From a virus: DNA of 24,562 nt. The translations under genes were made by a program, and so were the position numbers. The notes beneath the pieces were generated by a model. That model was not told the DNA's origin. It did no database searches and was given only the letters and a program-made list of their open reading frames with translations. The stretch spans positions 1-24,562 of the IMG/VR virus record IMGVR_UViG_3300025910_000034; one strand, given 5' to 3'. Within the stretch, counting starts at the first letter, position 1; each line of letters opens with the position of its first letter. Below are positions 6,745 through 17,554 of the stretch, in pieces.

Positions 6745-6909
6745 GGCGCGACGATGGCATGGTTCTTGCTCTTACGCGCGCGTCAATTAGATATGCGTGC
6801 GGCGCGACGAGTGTATGGATTCTACTACACGGTGCGACGAGTGTGCATAATCGGACACAGTGTTATGCTGCTACCAGGTAATAGGCGGGTGAAGGTGTAG
6901 GCGCGACCA
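6745..6909 (+). repeat. Four GGCGCGACGA-type short repeats
   Basis: GGCGCGACGA at 6745-6754 and 6801-6810, GGTGCGACGA at 6831-6840, and GGCGCGACCA at 6900-6909. Two copies extend into a shared GTGT (GACGAGTGTATG and GACGAGTGTGCAT). The copies lie upstream of the rightward early operon, and the spacing is irregular (56, 30 and 69 bases). They could be binding sites for an early-operon regulator. Confidence 0.5.
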
Positions 6910-7184: not shown

Positions 7185-8375
7185 ATGCCCGAAACCTTAC
7201 AATGTGGTGCACACCCTAGTCTAACGCAGCCCTGTACTGCATGTAGGCAATGCCCCGCATGCTGTGACTGTCAAGACTGTGCAGTATGCGAGCACAGGAA
7301 TAGACTCGGCAACTTGCATATCTGTAATCACTGTGAGGGCTGCACACATTGTTGTGAGTGTTTAACGTGCGACTGTGGCGTCTTAGTAACACGCGATTGT
7401 CGAACAAGTAGTCATTGTGATAGACACTGCGATTGTAGCGTAGACGAGGAAGGCGAACGTAACGTAGCTATTCACCGTTACCCTCTAACCTTCCATAACT
7501 CTACGACGTTTAACGTAAATCCTTCACACCGCTACCTATCCGTCGAAATAGAAGTAGCAAACTGTGGGCCTGGTAGTCATGTTAACGTAGCGTGCGAGAA
7601 ATGGAAGGCGTCTATTGTTGAGGATGGCAGCCTACCGGACAGCGGATTTGAGATAAACACGGCACCCGCTAATGGTGACTTATTCGTTAATCAAATCAGT
7701 GAGATATGCGGGGCTTTAGCGAGACAAGGCGCGGAAGTTAACGAAAGGTGCGGCCTGCATGTTCATATAGACGCCCGTACCTTCCGCGCTCCGACCATGC
7801 GTAAGTTACTGAAACTCTACGTTAAACTAGAGCGTGCCTTGTTCCTGCTTGTACCAGATTCTAGACGGCATAACCAATATTGCACACCCGTAGAGCGTAG
7901 ACTACGTGAATATCTGAACCCTAAAAAGCCTGATTACAATAAGATGGATTCTACAGGTGGGCCACTATGGGAAACCGTACCACTGAAAGGTGCAAAGGAA
8001 ACACGCGAAAAGATAGCAGAATACACCTATGGCGATGGCGTCAAGGTAGTACCTAATCAACTACGACGTAACAAGTATGGGGGAGAACGCTACAAGGCAT
8101 TTAACCTGGTCTCCTGGTATCATCGTGGTACAATCGAATGCAGGTTGTTCAATGGGACTGTGAACGCTACTAAAATCATCAATTGGGCTATGCTGTGGGC
8201 GGGTATCCTAGACTATGCGAAGCGTACCCATGAGAACGTGATAGACTCGCTACCCGAACACAGTGACAGCGAACCACTGCGTAACCTAATGATAGTTGCG
8301 CCTACAGGTACAGTAAAAGAGTGGGTAAAGCAACGATTTGATAAGTGGGGTATGAATAAAGAGGAGAACGAGTAA
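7185..8375 (+). CDS. Putative amidoligase with 21-Cys N-terminal zinc-binding domain
   Basis: The protein has 396 residues. Residues 125-345 show the signatures of the phage/bacterial amidoligase family (COOH-NH2 ligases of the glutamine-synthetase/gamma-glutamylcysteine-ligase fold): VEIEV at 120-124, GFEINTAP at 154-161, CGLHVHID at 189-196, RYKAFNL and later GTIECRLFNGT. These supply acidic metal/ATP ligands and the substrate pocket. Residues 7-84 hold 21 cysteines in two repeats of C-x2-C-x2-C-x2-CC-x-C-x2-C (17-32 and 47-62), probably a metal-binding module. It is coupled by a TAATG overlap to a class II glutamine amidotransferase, so ammonia from glutamine is the likely nitrogen source. 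The acceptor carboxylate is unknown. Confidence 0.82.
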   Translation: MPETLQCGAHPSLTQPCTACRQCPACCDCQDCAVCEHRNRLGNLHICNHCEGCTHCCECLTCDCGVLVTRDCRTSSHCDRHCDCSVDEEGERNVAIHRYPLTFHNSTTFNVNPSHRYLSVEIEVANCGPGSHVNVACEKWKASIVEDGSLPDSGFEINTAPANGDLFVNQISEICGALARQGAEVNERCGLHVHIDARTFRAPTMRKLLKLYVKLERALFLLVPDSRRHNQYCTPVERRLREYLNPKKPDYNKMDSTGGPLWETVPLKGAKETREKIAEYTYGDGVKVVPNQLRRNKYGGERYKAFNLVSWYHRGTIECRLFNGTVNATKIINWAMLWAGILDYAKRTHENVIDSLPEHSDSEPLRNLMIVAPTGTVKEWVKQRFDKWGMNKEENE

Positions 8376-9304
8376 TGTGTGGTATATTCGGATATAACCT
8401 ACCTGATACCGTATCAGTCGAAAAACGGGCCATCCTTGCAGCCATCCTCGCAAGCAAAATGGATGCACGCGGGGGTGATTCATGGGGTATCGTTCGAGAT
8501 GGTGAAGTAGCTAAGGGCTTAGGTAGACTGTCTAAGAGCAACCAGGCCATGAAACTAGGCAGAGCACGTATCTTGTTAGGCCATACCAGGGCTGCGACTA
8601 CCGGAAGCATCACGGTAGACAATGCTCACCCATTCGTAAATGGTAGTATCACGGGCGCTCATAATGGGATCATCAGCAACCATGCAGCCCTGAACACGAA
8701 ATATAATCGCAAATGTGAAGTAGATTCAGAGCACATATTCATGCACTTACGCGATGGTCTACCAATGTCAGATATCGAAGGCTATGGAGCAGTGTGGTAT
8801 TTTATGCACAGTAAGCGGGATCGGGTGTATATGTTTAGAAGTGAAGGTGGCGACTTATCCATCTACGGAATTGGTACGCATAAGAATCCGCGTGGTGTGG
8901 TCTTTGCAAGTACCGAGACAAGCATTACCGATGCCCTGTCACTCGCTGGCCTTGAGGGGTTTCCATATGAAATTAAGGCGGGTGTACTCTACTATACAGA
9001 CCAGAATCAATTGTTCTATGAACCTAAAAAGGATATGAAGTTTAGCACAGTGACACGCTACATAAGCGGGAACACGTTTGATTGGAACAATTACGATAGC
9101 TACAAGGGATACGCTAACTACACCCGTACCGAATGGGAGAAAGACTTAGACAAGGGCGAAAGTACGGGCGACGACGACGATTTTGATACCATACTATGTG
9201 ATGGTTGCGACGAGGAAATGCTGCCAGGGGACTATAAGAGCGTACAAGAACACGGCTATAATTGGACGTTATGCAAGAAATGCGAACACACATATGATGC
9301 TTAG
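8375..9304 (+). CDS. Class II glutamine amidotransferase with C-terminal zinc ribbon
   Basis: The protein has 309 residues. It begins MCGIFG, so removal of Met exposes the Cys2 nucleophile of Ntn-type glutaminases. Further family motifs are RGGDSWG (32-38), GHTRAATTG (69-77), NAHPF (83-87) and HNGIISNHA (96-104), all matching the glutamine-binding site of GFAT/PurF-type domains. No sugar-isomerase or phosphoribosyl domain follows. Instead residues 275-303 form a zinc ribbon (CDGC ... CKKC). It should hydrolyse glutamine and pass ammonia to the amidoligase encoded just upstream. AGGAG precedes the ATG by eight bases. Stand-alone glutaminase with an amidoligase is a known but poorly understood pairing. 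Confidence 0.9.
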   Translation: MCGIFGYNLPDTVSVEKRAILAAILASKMDARGGDSWGIVRDGEVAKGLGRLSKSNQAMKLGRARILLGHTRAATTGSITVDNAHPFVNGSITGAHNGIISNHAALNTKYNRKCEVDSEHIFMHLRDGLPMSDIEGYGAVWYFMHSKRDRVYMFRSEGGDLSIYGIGTHKNPRGVVFASTETSITDALSLAGLEGFPYEIKAGVLYYTDQNQLFYEPKKDMKFSTVTRYISGNTFDWNNYDSYKGYANYTRTEWEKDLDKGESTGDDDDFDTILCDGCDEEMLPGDYKSVQEHGYNWTLCKKCEHTYDA

Positions 9305-10528: not shown

Positions 10529-11039
10529 TCAAGACTTCGATAACGCAGTATCAGAAGGTTACAATAGACTCGTAGGGTTTGCCGAGCAATTCACAAGCCC
10601 TACTGATGTCTATAGCCCTAAGGACATCGTACACAATGCCTTGTTATGGTTCCGTGTCAGGGCGCTTGCGACGTTCGAGTGGCGTAGTCAGGCTGAATGG
10701 GAGTGTATCATACAGAAGAACATTATATGGCAGGTACTAGACTCCCGCAAAGGGCGTAGCGAGGCGCTTAACTTTAAAGACGCCGTGTTATTCCCTGAAC
10801 AAGCCGACGAGGAAGTGGACGTAGACAGTTTTGAAGTAAGCGAGGCGTTTATACTCGCACTAGACGAGTTAGACCATCGCTCTAGGGAAGTCGTTCTAGC
10901 AGTACTGGCTGGGTTTACTCAAGAACAGGTAGCGGATTTGCTGGGGGTGTCTCGCCCCCTGGTGTCGCAGATATGGCGGCGTGCCCTTGACTCGGCGCGT
11001 GAATACATGGAACCCTTAGCATCCGACGATAATAGGTAG
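10521..11039 (+). CDS. Sigma-70 family RNA polymerase sigma factor (ECF-like)
   Basis: The protein has 172 residues. Residues 15-80 resemble sigma region 2 (PKDIVHNALLWFRVRALATF, then the helix with IIQKNIIWQVLDSRKGR). Residues 110-160 resemble region 4, with ALDELDHRSREVVLAVLAGF followed by the helix-turn-helix FTQEQVADLLGVSRPLVSQI. It would redirect host RNA polymerase to phage promoters. I chose the ATG at 10521 (GGAAAGGG just upstream) over ATG 10473. The 3' 125 bases, coding most of region 4, are antisense to the helicase gene's last codons. It could also act as a non-sigma DNA-binding regulator. Confidence 0.8.
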   Translation: MLSQDFDNAVSEGYNRLVGFAEQFTSPTDVYSPKDIVHNALLWFRVRALATFEWRSQAEWECIIQKNIIWQVLDSRKGRSEALNFKDAVLFPEQADEEVDVDSFEVSEAFILALDELDHRSREVVLAVLAGFTQEQVADLLGVSRPLVSQIWRRALDSAREYMEPLASDDNR

Positions 11040-11910
11040 CAGCCGATATGCCTATTTCAGTGGGGTAGAGGTTATAAATAGCGTTGTGTGTCAGGGTAGG
11101 GTGGTGTTCGCATAACTTCATCATCGCCCTACCCCACTCGTCAACAAAACGGGCGGCGGGTTCCAGCCAAAACGGGCCTGGGTCTGGTTCCTGCATGACC
11201 TTAATAGTCAGTGGGTAGCCTTCCTCAACGTCTTGATTCTTAACACAAGCCATCACAAGGGTATCCGGTTCAGGCCTAGTCAGAGCGATACCCACATTAC
11301 ACCCTGCAAGAATATCCGTAGACCCGCTTGCTCGATAACGTGATGGGTCGGGGCTGTCAGTACGGGGCTTTCGCATGTGGTGGGCCACGATGACGGTAAC
11401 ACCTTGTAAACACAGGGGATCAAGGTTTCTCCAAAACTGGCTAACGTCACTGGCCTCGTTCTCTTTCCCGACAATAACACGCCTTAGCGTCTCTACAATA
11501 ATGACCGTGGGTCTGAACTTGTGTTCATTTAAGTACTCCATAAGTAGCGAGGCTCCGTTACCGTCAAATCGAACCCCACAATGGCTGACAGCTTTCAAGG
11601 GTGGCTGGCCCTCAACGCCTAAGCCCTTCGCTAGTCGCTTAATTCTAGCCCGTAACGTGCGTTCGCTCATTTCCTCGTCAATATAAAGTACCTTTTGGGG
11701 TACCGTGGCATGGCCTAGCCAGTCCTGTCCTGTAGCCATACATAAGGCCATATGGAGTAGTACCCACGACTTCATTGAACCGAACTCCCCAAACAGGACC
11801 GTTTTACTACACCGCGTTATCCACGGGTGTAAGACCCATGATATCGGGGGGATAGGCTCTGAAAGGATGCTACTCACTGATATGGGCGGGAAGTTTCTCA
11901 CGTTTCTCAT
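10915..11910 (-). CDS. RepA-like AAA/RecA-fold helicase ATPase
   Basis: The protein has 331 residues from ATG 11910. Walker A is GEFGSMKS (41-48), followed by the Walker B-like VLYIDEEMSE with acidic residues, VIIVETLRR, and a sensor-like VIVAHHMRKPR, as in the AAA_25/RepA group of hexameric replicative helicases. The C-terminus has GISAATYYRRML, a possible helix-turn-helix, then a Pro/Ala-rich tail that is antisense to the sigma gene. It is the only leftward gene between 7 and 22.8 kb. Its first codons (MRNVRNF) are themselves two TGAGAAAC repeats, and no ribosome site is visible upstream. It probably unwinds the phage origin. Confidence 0.8.
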   Translation of the reverse strand: MRNVRNFPPISVSSILSEPIPPISWVLHPWITRCSKTVLFGEFGSMKSWVLLHMALCMATGQDWLGHATVPQKVLYIDEEMSERTLRARIKRLAKGLGVEGQPPLKAVSHCGVRFDGNGASLLMEYLNEHKFRPTVIIVETLRRVIVGKENEASDVSQFWRNLDPLCLQGVTVIVAHHMRKPRTDSPDPSRYRASGSTDILAGCNVGIALTRPEPDTLVMACVKNQDVEEGYPLTIKVMQEPDPGPFWLEPAARFVDEWGRAMMKLCEHHPTLTHNAIYNLYPTEIGISAATYYRRMLRVPCIHAPSQGHAAISATPGGETPPANPLPVLE

Positions 11911-11936
11911 CCATATATAGCAGAGAAATGAGAAAC
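11893..11936. promoter_or_regulatory. TGAGAAAC operator/iteron cluster at helicase start
   Basis: Inverted copies GTTTCTCA at 11893-11900 and 11902-11909 and a direct copy TGAGAAAC at 11929-11936 surround a TATATA element. The pattern of two inverted copies, an A/T core and one opposing copy matches 6330-6377. Two copies lie inside the first codons of the helicase gene, a position suited to autoregulation of the divergent pair of genes here. Confidence 0.7.
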
Positions 11937-11998
11937 CGCCATTGTAGGCTTTTTGATACACTAGCACGGGATGTCCTGATAGCTATATACCCCGTGCA

Positions 11999-14430: not shown

Positions 14431-14955
14431 ATGGAAACAGTAGCAGTAGGAGATGGACAGTTAACGGAGTTTCGCACGGGCGTCGATTTCGATGAAGACG
14501 TGCGTGGGTTTAGTATCAACGAACAGAAGGAAATCGAAGGGCGTAACATCCCTGATGGCTGGCAGTCGTTGGGCGTGGTGAGTGTGGCGCGGGTCCAGAG
14601 TGAAGACGAGGTTCGCATGGACTCACTCAAGCCGTACTACAAGTCACTGTTTAACGTGACGTTTAACGTGACAGTCGAGGGGCGCAAGTTTCCGATCAAG
14701 CATACCGCCCTCGTGTCCGGTAAGCCTTTGCAGTTGACGAGCGCCCGGACCGGCAACCAGTATTACCCGACAGCTTCGCGTTTGGGCAGCAACCTGGCGC
14801 GTGCGACACGGGTAGACAGTGGCTTCCAGGGCGTACTTGACGCCGCGATGACCACGCCGCTGTTCGGTAAGTTCGAGACGAACGAAGCGGGTTATCAGTC
14901 GTTAGAGCGTATCTCCAACAGAATGCCAGCGTCCGGTAATGGCGCTGCTGCCTAA
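14431..14955 (+). CDS. Unknown protein beside polymerase; candidate ssDNA-binding protein
   Basis: The protein has 174 residues and starts METVAVGDGQLTEFRTGVDF. A TAGGAG ribosome site precedes the ATG. The middle is strand-rich (YKSLFNVTFNVTVEGRKFPI, then HTALVSGKPLQLTSARTG), which would suit an OB fold, and there are several basic and aromatic residues. It lies between the Sak4-like ATPase and DNA polymerase, where phages often place a single-strand binding protein. There is no acidic C-terminal tail and no family match was recognised, so the function is speculative. Confidence 0.65.
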   Translation: METVAVGDGQLTEFRTGVDFDEDVRGFSINEQKEIEGRNIPDGWQSLGVVSVARVQSEDEVRMDSLKPYYKSLFNVTFNVTVEGRKFPIKHTALVSGKPLQLTSARTGNQYYPTASRLGSNLARATRVDSGFQGVLDAAMTTPLFGKFETNEAGYQSLERISNRMPASGNGAAA

Positions 14956-17554
14956 ACCAGAAGGGTGTAAGGGGTGCCCTGCGTATGGTGACGGCCTCGG
15001 ATTTGTACCTGATGATGTCATTGATGGGGCCGTCACTACCGTTATTCTGCAAAACCCTGGCCCCGACGAAGAAGCAGGCCGCAAGGTGGTCGCAATGGAC
15101 CAGAAGAATCGGCCTGTGTATCAAGTATGCGACCACAAGCCCGCCATCGGACGAACTGGTTACTTCATGGACCGAACACTCCTCCCGTTGGCGGGCTTGG
15201 AGCGCGGCAAGAACGTATCGGTCCTCAACGTCCTCAAATGCCGATGGACAGACAACGGAAGGAAAGTAAATGAACTCCCTCGTGGTAAGGTGCTTTTGGA
15301 CATTGTGGATCGTTGTACCTGTGCTTATCTTAGGATTCCAGCTTCTACTCGGTTGGTAGTCGCAGCGGGGCAACTGGCATGGGAATATCTACAGGGCGAC
15401 AAGTTATCAATATCGAGTTGGCGCGGATTTGTCGGGCCGAAGCTGCTTACCTTGGACTCGGCTTTAAGCCCGAAATCGTCCGAAACGAAGCCCGTGCTAA
15501 ACTCCGGTGGGTGCTCTACTGCTGCCGAAACATCCGGCCATGCGACCACTGTGCAAGTACCAGTACTAGCGACTTTACATCCTGCCGATTTGTTCAGGGA
15601 GAGACGGATGATACTACCGTCTCGGAGCGACTGGAAGAAGGTGCCCAAGCTGCTAGAGGGAACGTGGCCGACGCCGCTGCCTACACGGTTAGTCATATCG
15701 GCCCACACAACGATTCGGGAAATAGATGAATGGTTTGGTCATGCCTATGAAAAAGCGCAAGAAGTCAGCATCGACACTGAATACGTACCGGAAAAAGAGC
15801 TACTTACGATTATTGGAATCGGTTTCCGTGACGGTCATACCATTTCCGGGTGTCAGCTTGAATGGCTTAACCAAGATATATCACGCATTATCCGATCACG
15901 GTTCGTACAAGGATTACGTCATCTACTTACCACTCGTAAGGCCATATTCTGGAATGCTCAAGCTGACCTTCCCATACTCCAAAAAAACCTGTCGATCAGA
16001 CCGCCGCTTTTTGAGGATGCTATGCTTGCTCATGCGGCACTCTGGTCCGAGTTACCACACGACCTCGACTTTGCGTCGTCTGTGTACTCCCCGTACAATA
16101 AACCCAAAAAGGATGTCGTAGGATGGGGGCTAGACAAAAATTGGGGCGACGTGGTAGCAACAGTATGCGTGTGGGAGTCAATAGCCACAAGTCTACAGGG
16201 CGATCCCGGAGCACGGGACGATTACTACAAACAGAAGTTACCGTTGGTATCCATCCTGCTAGAAAATCAGCAGCACGGGCTACGAGTCAACAAGGACCGC
16301 GTTACGAGTATGGTCCCCATGTACGAGGAAAGGTTGCGCCAAGCGTCCCGTATTGCTCAAGCTGCATGTGGCTGGCCTGTGAACTTAGGCAGTTCGACGC
16401 AGCTTGCTTACTGGCTGTACTCTCACGGTGGCTTAGACGCTCAATACAATCGGAAGACGAAAAAGGAAACAGTCGATGATGACGCAATCGCGGAACTTAG
16501 GAACAAAATCGAGCCAGCGCCGGACTTCACGGACGAAAAATCCGGTGTCAACGCCGATTACATACGTGACAGGATCGCTCAAGGGGCCAATCCGCTGTTG
16601 GAGGGCCGAGTCCTTTATGCCGAATCAAAGCAAATCCTTTCCCATTACCTCACGCCATTGGTCCTTGACAGTGGGGGAGTATGTGATCGGGTCTACCCCG
16701 AAACTTCTACGCATACGCAGGACAACGGGCGATGGTCGATAAGCCGACCGCCCCTAGCCCAACTCCCGGACGATTTGAGGGACATTATTGTACCCGATCC
16801 GGGCTTTGTCCATGTGCATTGGGACTGGAACGCAGCCGAGCCGTGGATACAAGCGTTAACTATGAAGTCGAGGTTCTTGACGGATGCGTTGGGAAATGGG
16901 TGGGATTTAAATACGCTGGCCCTCTGCGACCTGATGGGCTGGATGTACCCATACGACAGGTCGAATCCGATGGACGACAAGGGCTGGACGACGCTACACC
17001 AATGGGAGGGGAAAGATGACCCCCGGCGACGGCTTGCAAAGGCGGGACGCCTTGCGCTTGATTATGGGAAGCTTGATCTCTCTACCCTTCCTGGGGTTGC
17101 TCGGTTGGGACTGGTTAAAGCCGACCTTAAAACAGCCGGCCAACGCATCATCGACAGTGACCCCGATAAGCGGCGATACATGGCAGCAACCTTGGGACGA
17201 GTTCGCAAAGGTGAAAATATCAGCCGAGATTGGACCGGAGCGCGACGTGTATTTTTGGGGACGGTTGGAGACTCGATGTATCGAGAATGGCTCAACCATC
17301 CGTTCCAGCGAGGGGTGGCTTCACTCCTCAATCTTACAGTGGCCGAGATCGTTAATACGGTGCCCGGAGTGCGGTACGCATGGTCGATGCACGACGCGGG
17401 CGATATTTCATGCCCCGTTGAACAGTTATCCACGGCCTTACCTGCTATACGGACCATCGTTGAACAGGAACGCGATATTAATGGAACCAAGCACGCTTTT
17501 AAAGCAACGTGGAGTGTAGTCTATGACGATGGACGAAGGGAGTCTATAGCATGA
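14939..17554 (+). CDS. Uracil-DNA glycosylase / 3'-5' exonuclease / family A DNA polymerase fusion
   Basis: The protein has 871 residues. Residues 1-225 resemble family 4 uracil-DNA glycosylase: four likely Fe-S cysteines (C10, C13, C100 in NVLKC, and C125 or C127), LQNPGPDEEAG at 37-47, and LHPAD near the end. An exonuclease domain follows with SIDTEY (motif I) and WNAQADLPIL (motif II); motif III (NWGDVVATVCVW) lacks the usual Tyr. The polymerase has motif A DWNAAEPW (629-636), motif B RRLAKAGRLALDYG (697-710) and motif C MHDAG (817-821). Leu705 replaces E. coli Phe762, and HDA replaces HDE. The start overlaps the upstream gene by 17 bases. Confidence 0.9.
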   Translation: MALLPKPEGCKGCPAYGDGLGFVPDDVIDGAVTTVILQNPGPDEEAGRKVVAMDQKNRPVYQVCDHKPAIGRTGYFMDRTLLPLAGLERGKNVSVLNVLKCRWTDNGRKVNELPRGKVLLDIVDRCTCAYLRIPASTRLVVAAGQLAWEYLQGDKLSISSWRGFVGPKLLTLDSALSPKSSETKPVLNSGGCSTAAETSGHATTVQVPVLATLHPADLFRERRMILPSRSDWKKVPKLLEGTWPTPLPTRLVISAHTTIREIDEWFGHAYEKAQEVSIDTEYVPEKELLTIIGIGFRDGHTISGCQLEWLNQDISRIIRSRFVQGLRHLLTTRKAIFWNAQADLPILQKNLSIRPPLFEDAMLAHAALWSELPHDLDFASSVYSPYNKPKKDVVGWGLDKNWGDVVATVCVWESIATSLQGDPGARDDYYKQKLPLVSILLENQQHGLRVNKDRVTSMVPMYEERLRQASRIAQAACGWPVNLGSSTQLAYWLYSHGGLDAQYNRKTKKETVDDDAIAELRNKIEPAPDFTDEKSGVNADYIRDRIAQGANPLLEGRVLYAESKQILSHYLTPLVLDSGGVCDRVYPETSTHTQDNGRWSISRPPLAQLPDDLRDIIVPDPGFVHVHWDWNAAEPWIQALTMKSRFLTDALGNGWDLNTLALCDLMGWMYPYDRSNPMDDKGWTTLHQWEGKDDPRRRLAKAGRLALDYGKLDLSTLPGVARLGLVKADLKTAGQRIIDSDPDKRRYMAATLGRVRKGENISRDWTGARRVFLGTVGDSMYREWLNHPFQRGVASLLNLTVAEIVNTVPGVRYAWSMHDAGDISCPVEQLSTALPAIRTIVEQERDINGTKHAFKATWSVVYDDGRRESIA

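Follow-up and report, generated by a model that had tools for sequence, protein, structure and literature searches.

Pairs of an amidoligase and a class II glutamine amidotransferase (GATase), forming part of a larger gene cassette, are known in phages from Iyer 2009 and Hardies 2013, which PMC5498523 and PMC10580990 cite; the cassette bearers include phiEco32, RIO-1/PSA-HP1, LUZ24, PaP3, tf and PA11/TC6. Both genes are annotated in LUZ24-like phages (PMC3890496), in tf (PMC3517423) and in OM43 phages (PMC10580990), and in RIO-1-like phages the pair has been termed part of a "peptidoglycan modification cassette" (PMC5498523), for which superinfection exclusion was suggested (PMC5498523, PMC10580990, PMC11945000). 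No enzymatic activity or substrate of a phage amidoligase-GATase pair is reported in the literature that we found. MurT-GatD of Staphylococcus aureus (PMC3267633) is alike in outline, a separate glutaminase feeding an amide-making ligase, but its families are unrelated (a Mur ligase and a class I GATase).

The stretch of DNA analysed here (the window) is a 24,562-bp virus fragment, IMG/VR record IMGVR_UViG_3300025910_000034, from a phage whose nearest portal relatives are Pelagibacter podoviruses. Like the peptidoglycan modification cassette, it carries an Amidoligase_2 and a class II GATase in one non-structural block (Table 1); it differs in that COOH-NH2 ligase and GGCT genes did not turn up in the fragment or in its complete relative MW202637, and in the cysteine-rich N-terminus of its ligase. 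The initial annotation had called the pair a likely undescribed system, which does not hold, since such pairs are already annotated in LUZ24-like, tf, OM43 and RIO-1-like phages; the window pair is a variant, reduced and rich in cysteine, of a theme already known from phages. Its reading of the letters was accurate: the two ORFs adjoin with a TAATG overlap, and all five quoted motifs were located, GLHVHID (residues 190-196) and YKAFNL (303-308) in the ligase and MCGIFG (1-6), GHTRAATTG (69-77) and HNGII (96-100) in the GATase.

Table 1. Features of the amidoligase-GATase locus, in window coordinates
Feature	Position	Strand	Evidence
Amidoligase gene P0001, 396 aa	7185..8375	+	PF12224 E=1e-26; dN/dS 0.19; fold matches Z 11-13
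Cysteine-rich N-terminal region of ligase, residues 1-90, 21 Cys, putative zinc knuckles	7185..7454	+	Cys enrichment; Cys conservation in the closest relative, L007; pLDDT 32-46
Amidoligase_2 catalytic domain, ~residues 112-352	7518..8240	+	Alignment of 22 relatives; Pfam match 155-338
Shine-Dalgarno-like GAGGAG and TAATG stop/start overlap, coupling both genes	8361..8377	+	Direct sequence reading
Stand-alone class II GATase (glutaminase) gene P0002, 309 aa	8375..9304	+	GATase_6 E=9e-9; dN/dS 0.075
Ntn-type glutaminase domain, residues 1-225	8375..9049	+	pLDDT mostly >90; GlmS/PurF Z 23; invariant active site
C-terminal zinc-ribbon/treble-clef-like tail of GATase, residues 271-309, CDGC...CKKC	9185..9301	+	Weak fold match; CxxC pairs in related GATases

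The amidoligase and GATase are the first genes of the rightward block, which bears out their placement at the head of the non-structural genes; early expression would be a prediction from this position. This block also encodes a sigma-factor-like protein, a Sak4-like protein, a family A DNA polymerase and an exonuclease, and a stretch of about 0.9 kb separates it from a divergent leftward block with terminase, Head-tail_con portal and capsid families. The amidoligase stop codon TAA (8373-8375) has one base in common with the GATase start codon ATG (8375-8377), and the GAGGAG run (8361-8366) lies 8 bases upstream of that start. A promoter and terminator scan of the region gave signals not clearly above those of shuffled sequences. 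Between the divergent blocks, positions 6745-6844 hold imperfect direct repeats of GGCGCGACGAGTGT, which are possible operator sites. Elsewhere in the rightward block, a 350-aa ORF lies on the minus strand (10915-11967), and related stretches, found in several contigs (L026, L031-L039), look like part of a primase/helicase-type ATPase. The polymerase (14939-17554), whose best matches are Manatee Spring phage polymerases, looks by eye as if a uracil-DNA-glycosylase-type domain were fused to its N-terminus.

Sequence patterns derived from the initial single proteins, and from an alignment of close sequences, recovered one relative. In the closest contig, IMGVR_UViG_3300005518_000071 (L007), the amidoligase and GATase are 80% and 87% identical to the window proteins, stand in the same order and adjoin matching terminase and portal genes. 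Between the two contigs dN/dS was 0.19 for the amidoligase and 0.075 (0.07 rounded) for the GATase, as compared to 0.02 for the terminase and 0.04 for the portal, so that purifying selection acts on both genes of the pair. Together with the profile matches these ratios rule out chance ORFs, and both are therefore real, selected proteins.

Profile and fold comparisons agree with the initial assignment of an amidoligase-fold enzyme and a stand-alone class II glutaminase. The ligase matched PF12224 (Amidoligase_2) with 94.8 bits over residues 155-338, against a curated cut-off of 22 bits, and the PHROG amidoligase family at 1.8e-28. A sequence search for relatives of solved structure yielded nothing significant; these were found by fold comparison alone. 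An AlphaFold model built from 22 sequences, confident from about residue 101 onward, matched YbdK (Z 13.2-13.3), plant glutamate-cysteine ligase (12.1), glutamine synthetases (11-12) and Dop (10.9), with a Foldseek E of 3e-6. Over residues 109-396 the ligase resembles YbdK, glutamate-cysteine ligase, glutamine synthetase and PafA-Dop in fold and in conserved Glu, His and Arg positions, but sequence identity is 10-14% and those enzymes are without a glutaminase subunit. The model thus points to an Amidoligase_2 with the carboxylate-amine ligase fold of glutamine synthetase. Eleven residues (E121, E123, S149, E156, H192, H194, R227, Y303, N307, E318 and R320) did not vary in the alignment of 22 relatives.

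For the GATase, GATase_6 scored 35.9 bits, above its cut-off of 27, GATase_4 reached E=1.6e-6, and PHROG GATase/aminotransferase families gave E values down to 1.4e-20. Its AlphaFold model, computed from 21 sequences, came closest to GlmS (Z 23.1) and PurF (Z 22.7), then to EgtC (Z 19.0), and Foldseek matched it to 1xff at 2.7e-12. From residue 2 to 235 it shares the fold and all catalytic residues of the GlmS and PurF glutaminase domains, and the active-site set C2, R72, N97-G98 and D117, including the catalytic cysteine, showed no variation among the 21 sequences; R72, N97-G98 and D117 make up the glutamine-binding set of GlmS/PurF. The modelled protein is accordingly assigned to class II glutaminases of the GlmS/PurF type with an Ntn fold. 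It differs from GlmS and PurF in standing alone, without a synthase domain, in its zinc-ribbon-like tail, and in having Ala for the gating Trp/Tyr. As this position (73, the gating Trp of GlmS) is also variable among relatives, a GlmS-like ammonia channel is not assured in the window pair. The invariance of catalytic residues across 21-22 relatives rules out their loss, and both proteins are therefore predicted to be active enzymes. In Escherichia phage XT18 (L005:9000-9460), the annotated GATase start leaves out the N-terminal half; the frame extends upstream to ...K-I-C-G-I..., and translation may in fact begin at a non-standard Ile codon directly before the catalytic Cys.

Both proteins carry an additional cysteine-rich part that the initial annotation had not mentioned. 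In the ligase, cysteine makes up 21 of residues 1-90, compared to 1.3% elsewhere in the window proteins (binomial p ~3e-20), and the closest relative keeps 16 of the 21 cysteines as against 28 of 59 other residues. This region is modelled with low confidence (pLDDT 32-46), and a search for a Pfam name gave no more than scattered weak hits to LIM, DUF4428 and treble-clef families in individual relatives. The GATase tail matched a small ribosomal chain weakly (6xu6_CW, Z 4.6, rmsd 1.6 over 39 residues), and comparable CxxC pairs occur in other GATases of the same group. We regard both as putative zinc-binding modules, for the ligase on the basis of cysteine spacing, and most likely they would join the two subunits or bind the target.

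We surveyed how often the two genes occur together; the loci include near-copies, and the counts do not represent independent events. With the GATase as seed, an Amidoligase_2 was present as well in 32 of 37 records, nearly always on the same strand and adjoining or very near. Seeded with the amidoligase, a same-strand class II GATase was found at 46 of 80 viral loci, each time within 300 nt, and at 11 of 65 genome loci, the ligase lying upstream in 54 of these 57 pairs. In most relatives, then, the genes adjoin, and both surveys rule out that they never do. Amidoligases without a GATase made up the remaining 34 viral and 54 genome loci. Pairing followed the N-terminus of the ligase: with at least three CxxC motifs there, 21 of 22 loci had a GATase partner, as compared to 36 of 123 for other ligases, and the gene of the single unpaired one (L130) runs into the contig end. 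Cysteine-rich ligases form a few groups on the tree, the deep joins of which are weakened by long branches; their GATase pairing is therefore more than one lineage's habit.

The closest named record is the complete genome MW202637 (Caudoviricetes, Manatee Spring), which has an amidoligase with a Cys-rich region followed by a GATase 42% identical over residues 1-220, and in which terminase and non-structural genes diverge as they do in the window. Its ligase is longer (684 aa), however, its pair lies deeper inside the operon, and a 43-aa ORF (L002:13097-13228), which could be a peptide substrate or due to chance, separates the two genes. Next after L007 in relatedness come L044 and two copies from a 165-kb contig binned as Elusimicrobia (L123, L188, L124), where each belongs to a window-like pair. 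The major head protein, RNA ligase and thymidylate synthase of this contig match phage families, and it is therefore probably a large phage. It has three amidoligases in a span of about 20 kb; a GATase follows two of them, and the third has none in the surrounding 9 kb. In Omnitrophica contigs (L125-L132), cysteine-rich ligase-GATase pairs are found near genes for a T4SS coupling protein, TraC, TrbC and RadC, at several loci directly downstream of the RadC-like gene, and up to three amidoligase copies occur in one genome. Given these neighbours, the Omnitrophica pairs reside in conjugative elements. In our reading the module is of use to mobile elements at large, in phages as in conjugative elements, probably by altering something in the host cell.

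Our preferred reading, which we hold with somewhat better than even confidence, is that the pair forms a two-subunit, glutamine-dependent amide ligase changing a carboxylate of the host cell. Once the initiator Met is removed, the GATase would hydrolyse glutamine through Cys2 and free ammonia, while the amidoligase would use ATP to activate the carboxylate as an acyl phosphate and couple it with the ammonia or with a different amine; we infer the transfer of ammonia from GATase to ligase. Directed evolution of a Pseudomonas phage produced missense changes in both the amidoligase gp22 and the GATase-type gp23 of two evolved phages, at different positions in each (PMC11450229), which suggests that the two proteins work together. 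Against our reading, the many GATase-free amidoligases show that the ligase fold does not always depend on a glutaminase. As to the substrate, our guesses are spread: a peptidoglycan-precursor peptide and a protein side chain are each possible, a small molecule slightly less so, with a small remainder for something else, and cell-wall precursor and protein are about equally likely targets.

The pair might instead be a reduced peptidoglycan modification cassette, amidating or otherwise altering cell-wall peptide precursors and so blocking other phages; we rate this as possible though short of an even chance. Both families occur in cassettes of Vibrio, Pseudomonas, Escherichia and Arthrobacter phages. 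Further genes such as COOH-NH2 ligase, ATP-grasp or GGCT accompany the pair in Vibrio 1.208.B, Pseudomonas TC6 and Escherichia XT18, in Arthrobacter Salgado GGCT precedes the ligase and GATase, and the interpretation is a published one (PMC5498523, PMC11945000). That cell-wall role, however, is a published hypothesis, with no biochemical test in the literature that we found. Neither COOH-NH2 ligase (PF14395) nor GGCT (PF06094, GGACT) gave a match in the 24.6-kb window or in complete MW202637, and no ATP-grasp family is listed among 25 of the 29 window ORFs or for MW202637, although divergent members could escape; the window is a fragment, and missing genes could lie outside it. The two-gene layout is common to many other contigs (for example L009, L010, L011 and L017). 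A bolder proposal, which we consider doubtful, is that a zinc-finger amidoligase and a glutaminase constitute a distinct two-gene module of unrelated phages and conjugative elements, amidating a specific host macromolecule that the cysteine-rich domain picks out; its role would be host takeover or counter-defence, as opposed to cell-wall superinfection exclusion. Neither protein matched a PADLOC anti-phage defence model.

Three further explanations assign the GATase or the pair to other chemistry. The GATase might be an EgtC-like hydrolase that trims the ligase's gamma-glutamyl amide products, and not an ammonia donor; stand-alone proteins of this fold can be hydrolases, the model does match the Ntn hydrolase EgtC, and PMC5498523 places the GATase among degradation genes, but GlmS and PurF match better (Z 22-23) and R72, N97-G98 and D117 are invariant, so that we think this unlikely. 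Still less probable is an auxiliary metabolic module aiding nitrogen assimilation by the infected cell. Such a role was put forward for Phage-ZRK32, the genes of which include amidoligase, GATase, GGCT and glutathione synthase; adding this phage promoted growth with nitrate or ammonium (PMC10945688). Those were whole-phage experiments; the net reaction of the pair uses up glutamine and ATP, and target-binding-like cysteine-rich modules together with spread in conjugative elements better fit host modification. Class II amidotransferases are known in phage 7-deazaguanine pathways, and the pair adjoins replication genes, which could suggest a glutaminase feeding DNA hypermodification as thought for phages modified in this way. 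No deazaguanine synthesis or transglycosylase family is listed among 25 of the 29 window ORFs, however, and the constant partner of the GATase is the amidoligase, leaving this explanation very improbable.

The two-gene form found in the window is the smallest unit of the pathway, and hence the version that can most readily be expressed and assayed. That it recurs in conjugative elements points to an advantage shared by mobile DNA, beyond what the superinfection idea calls for, and the identity of its substrate would explain a common class of unassigned phage genes.
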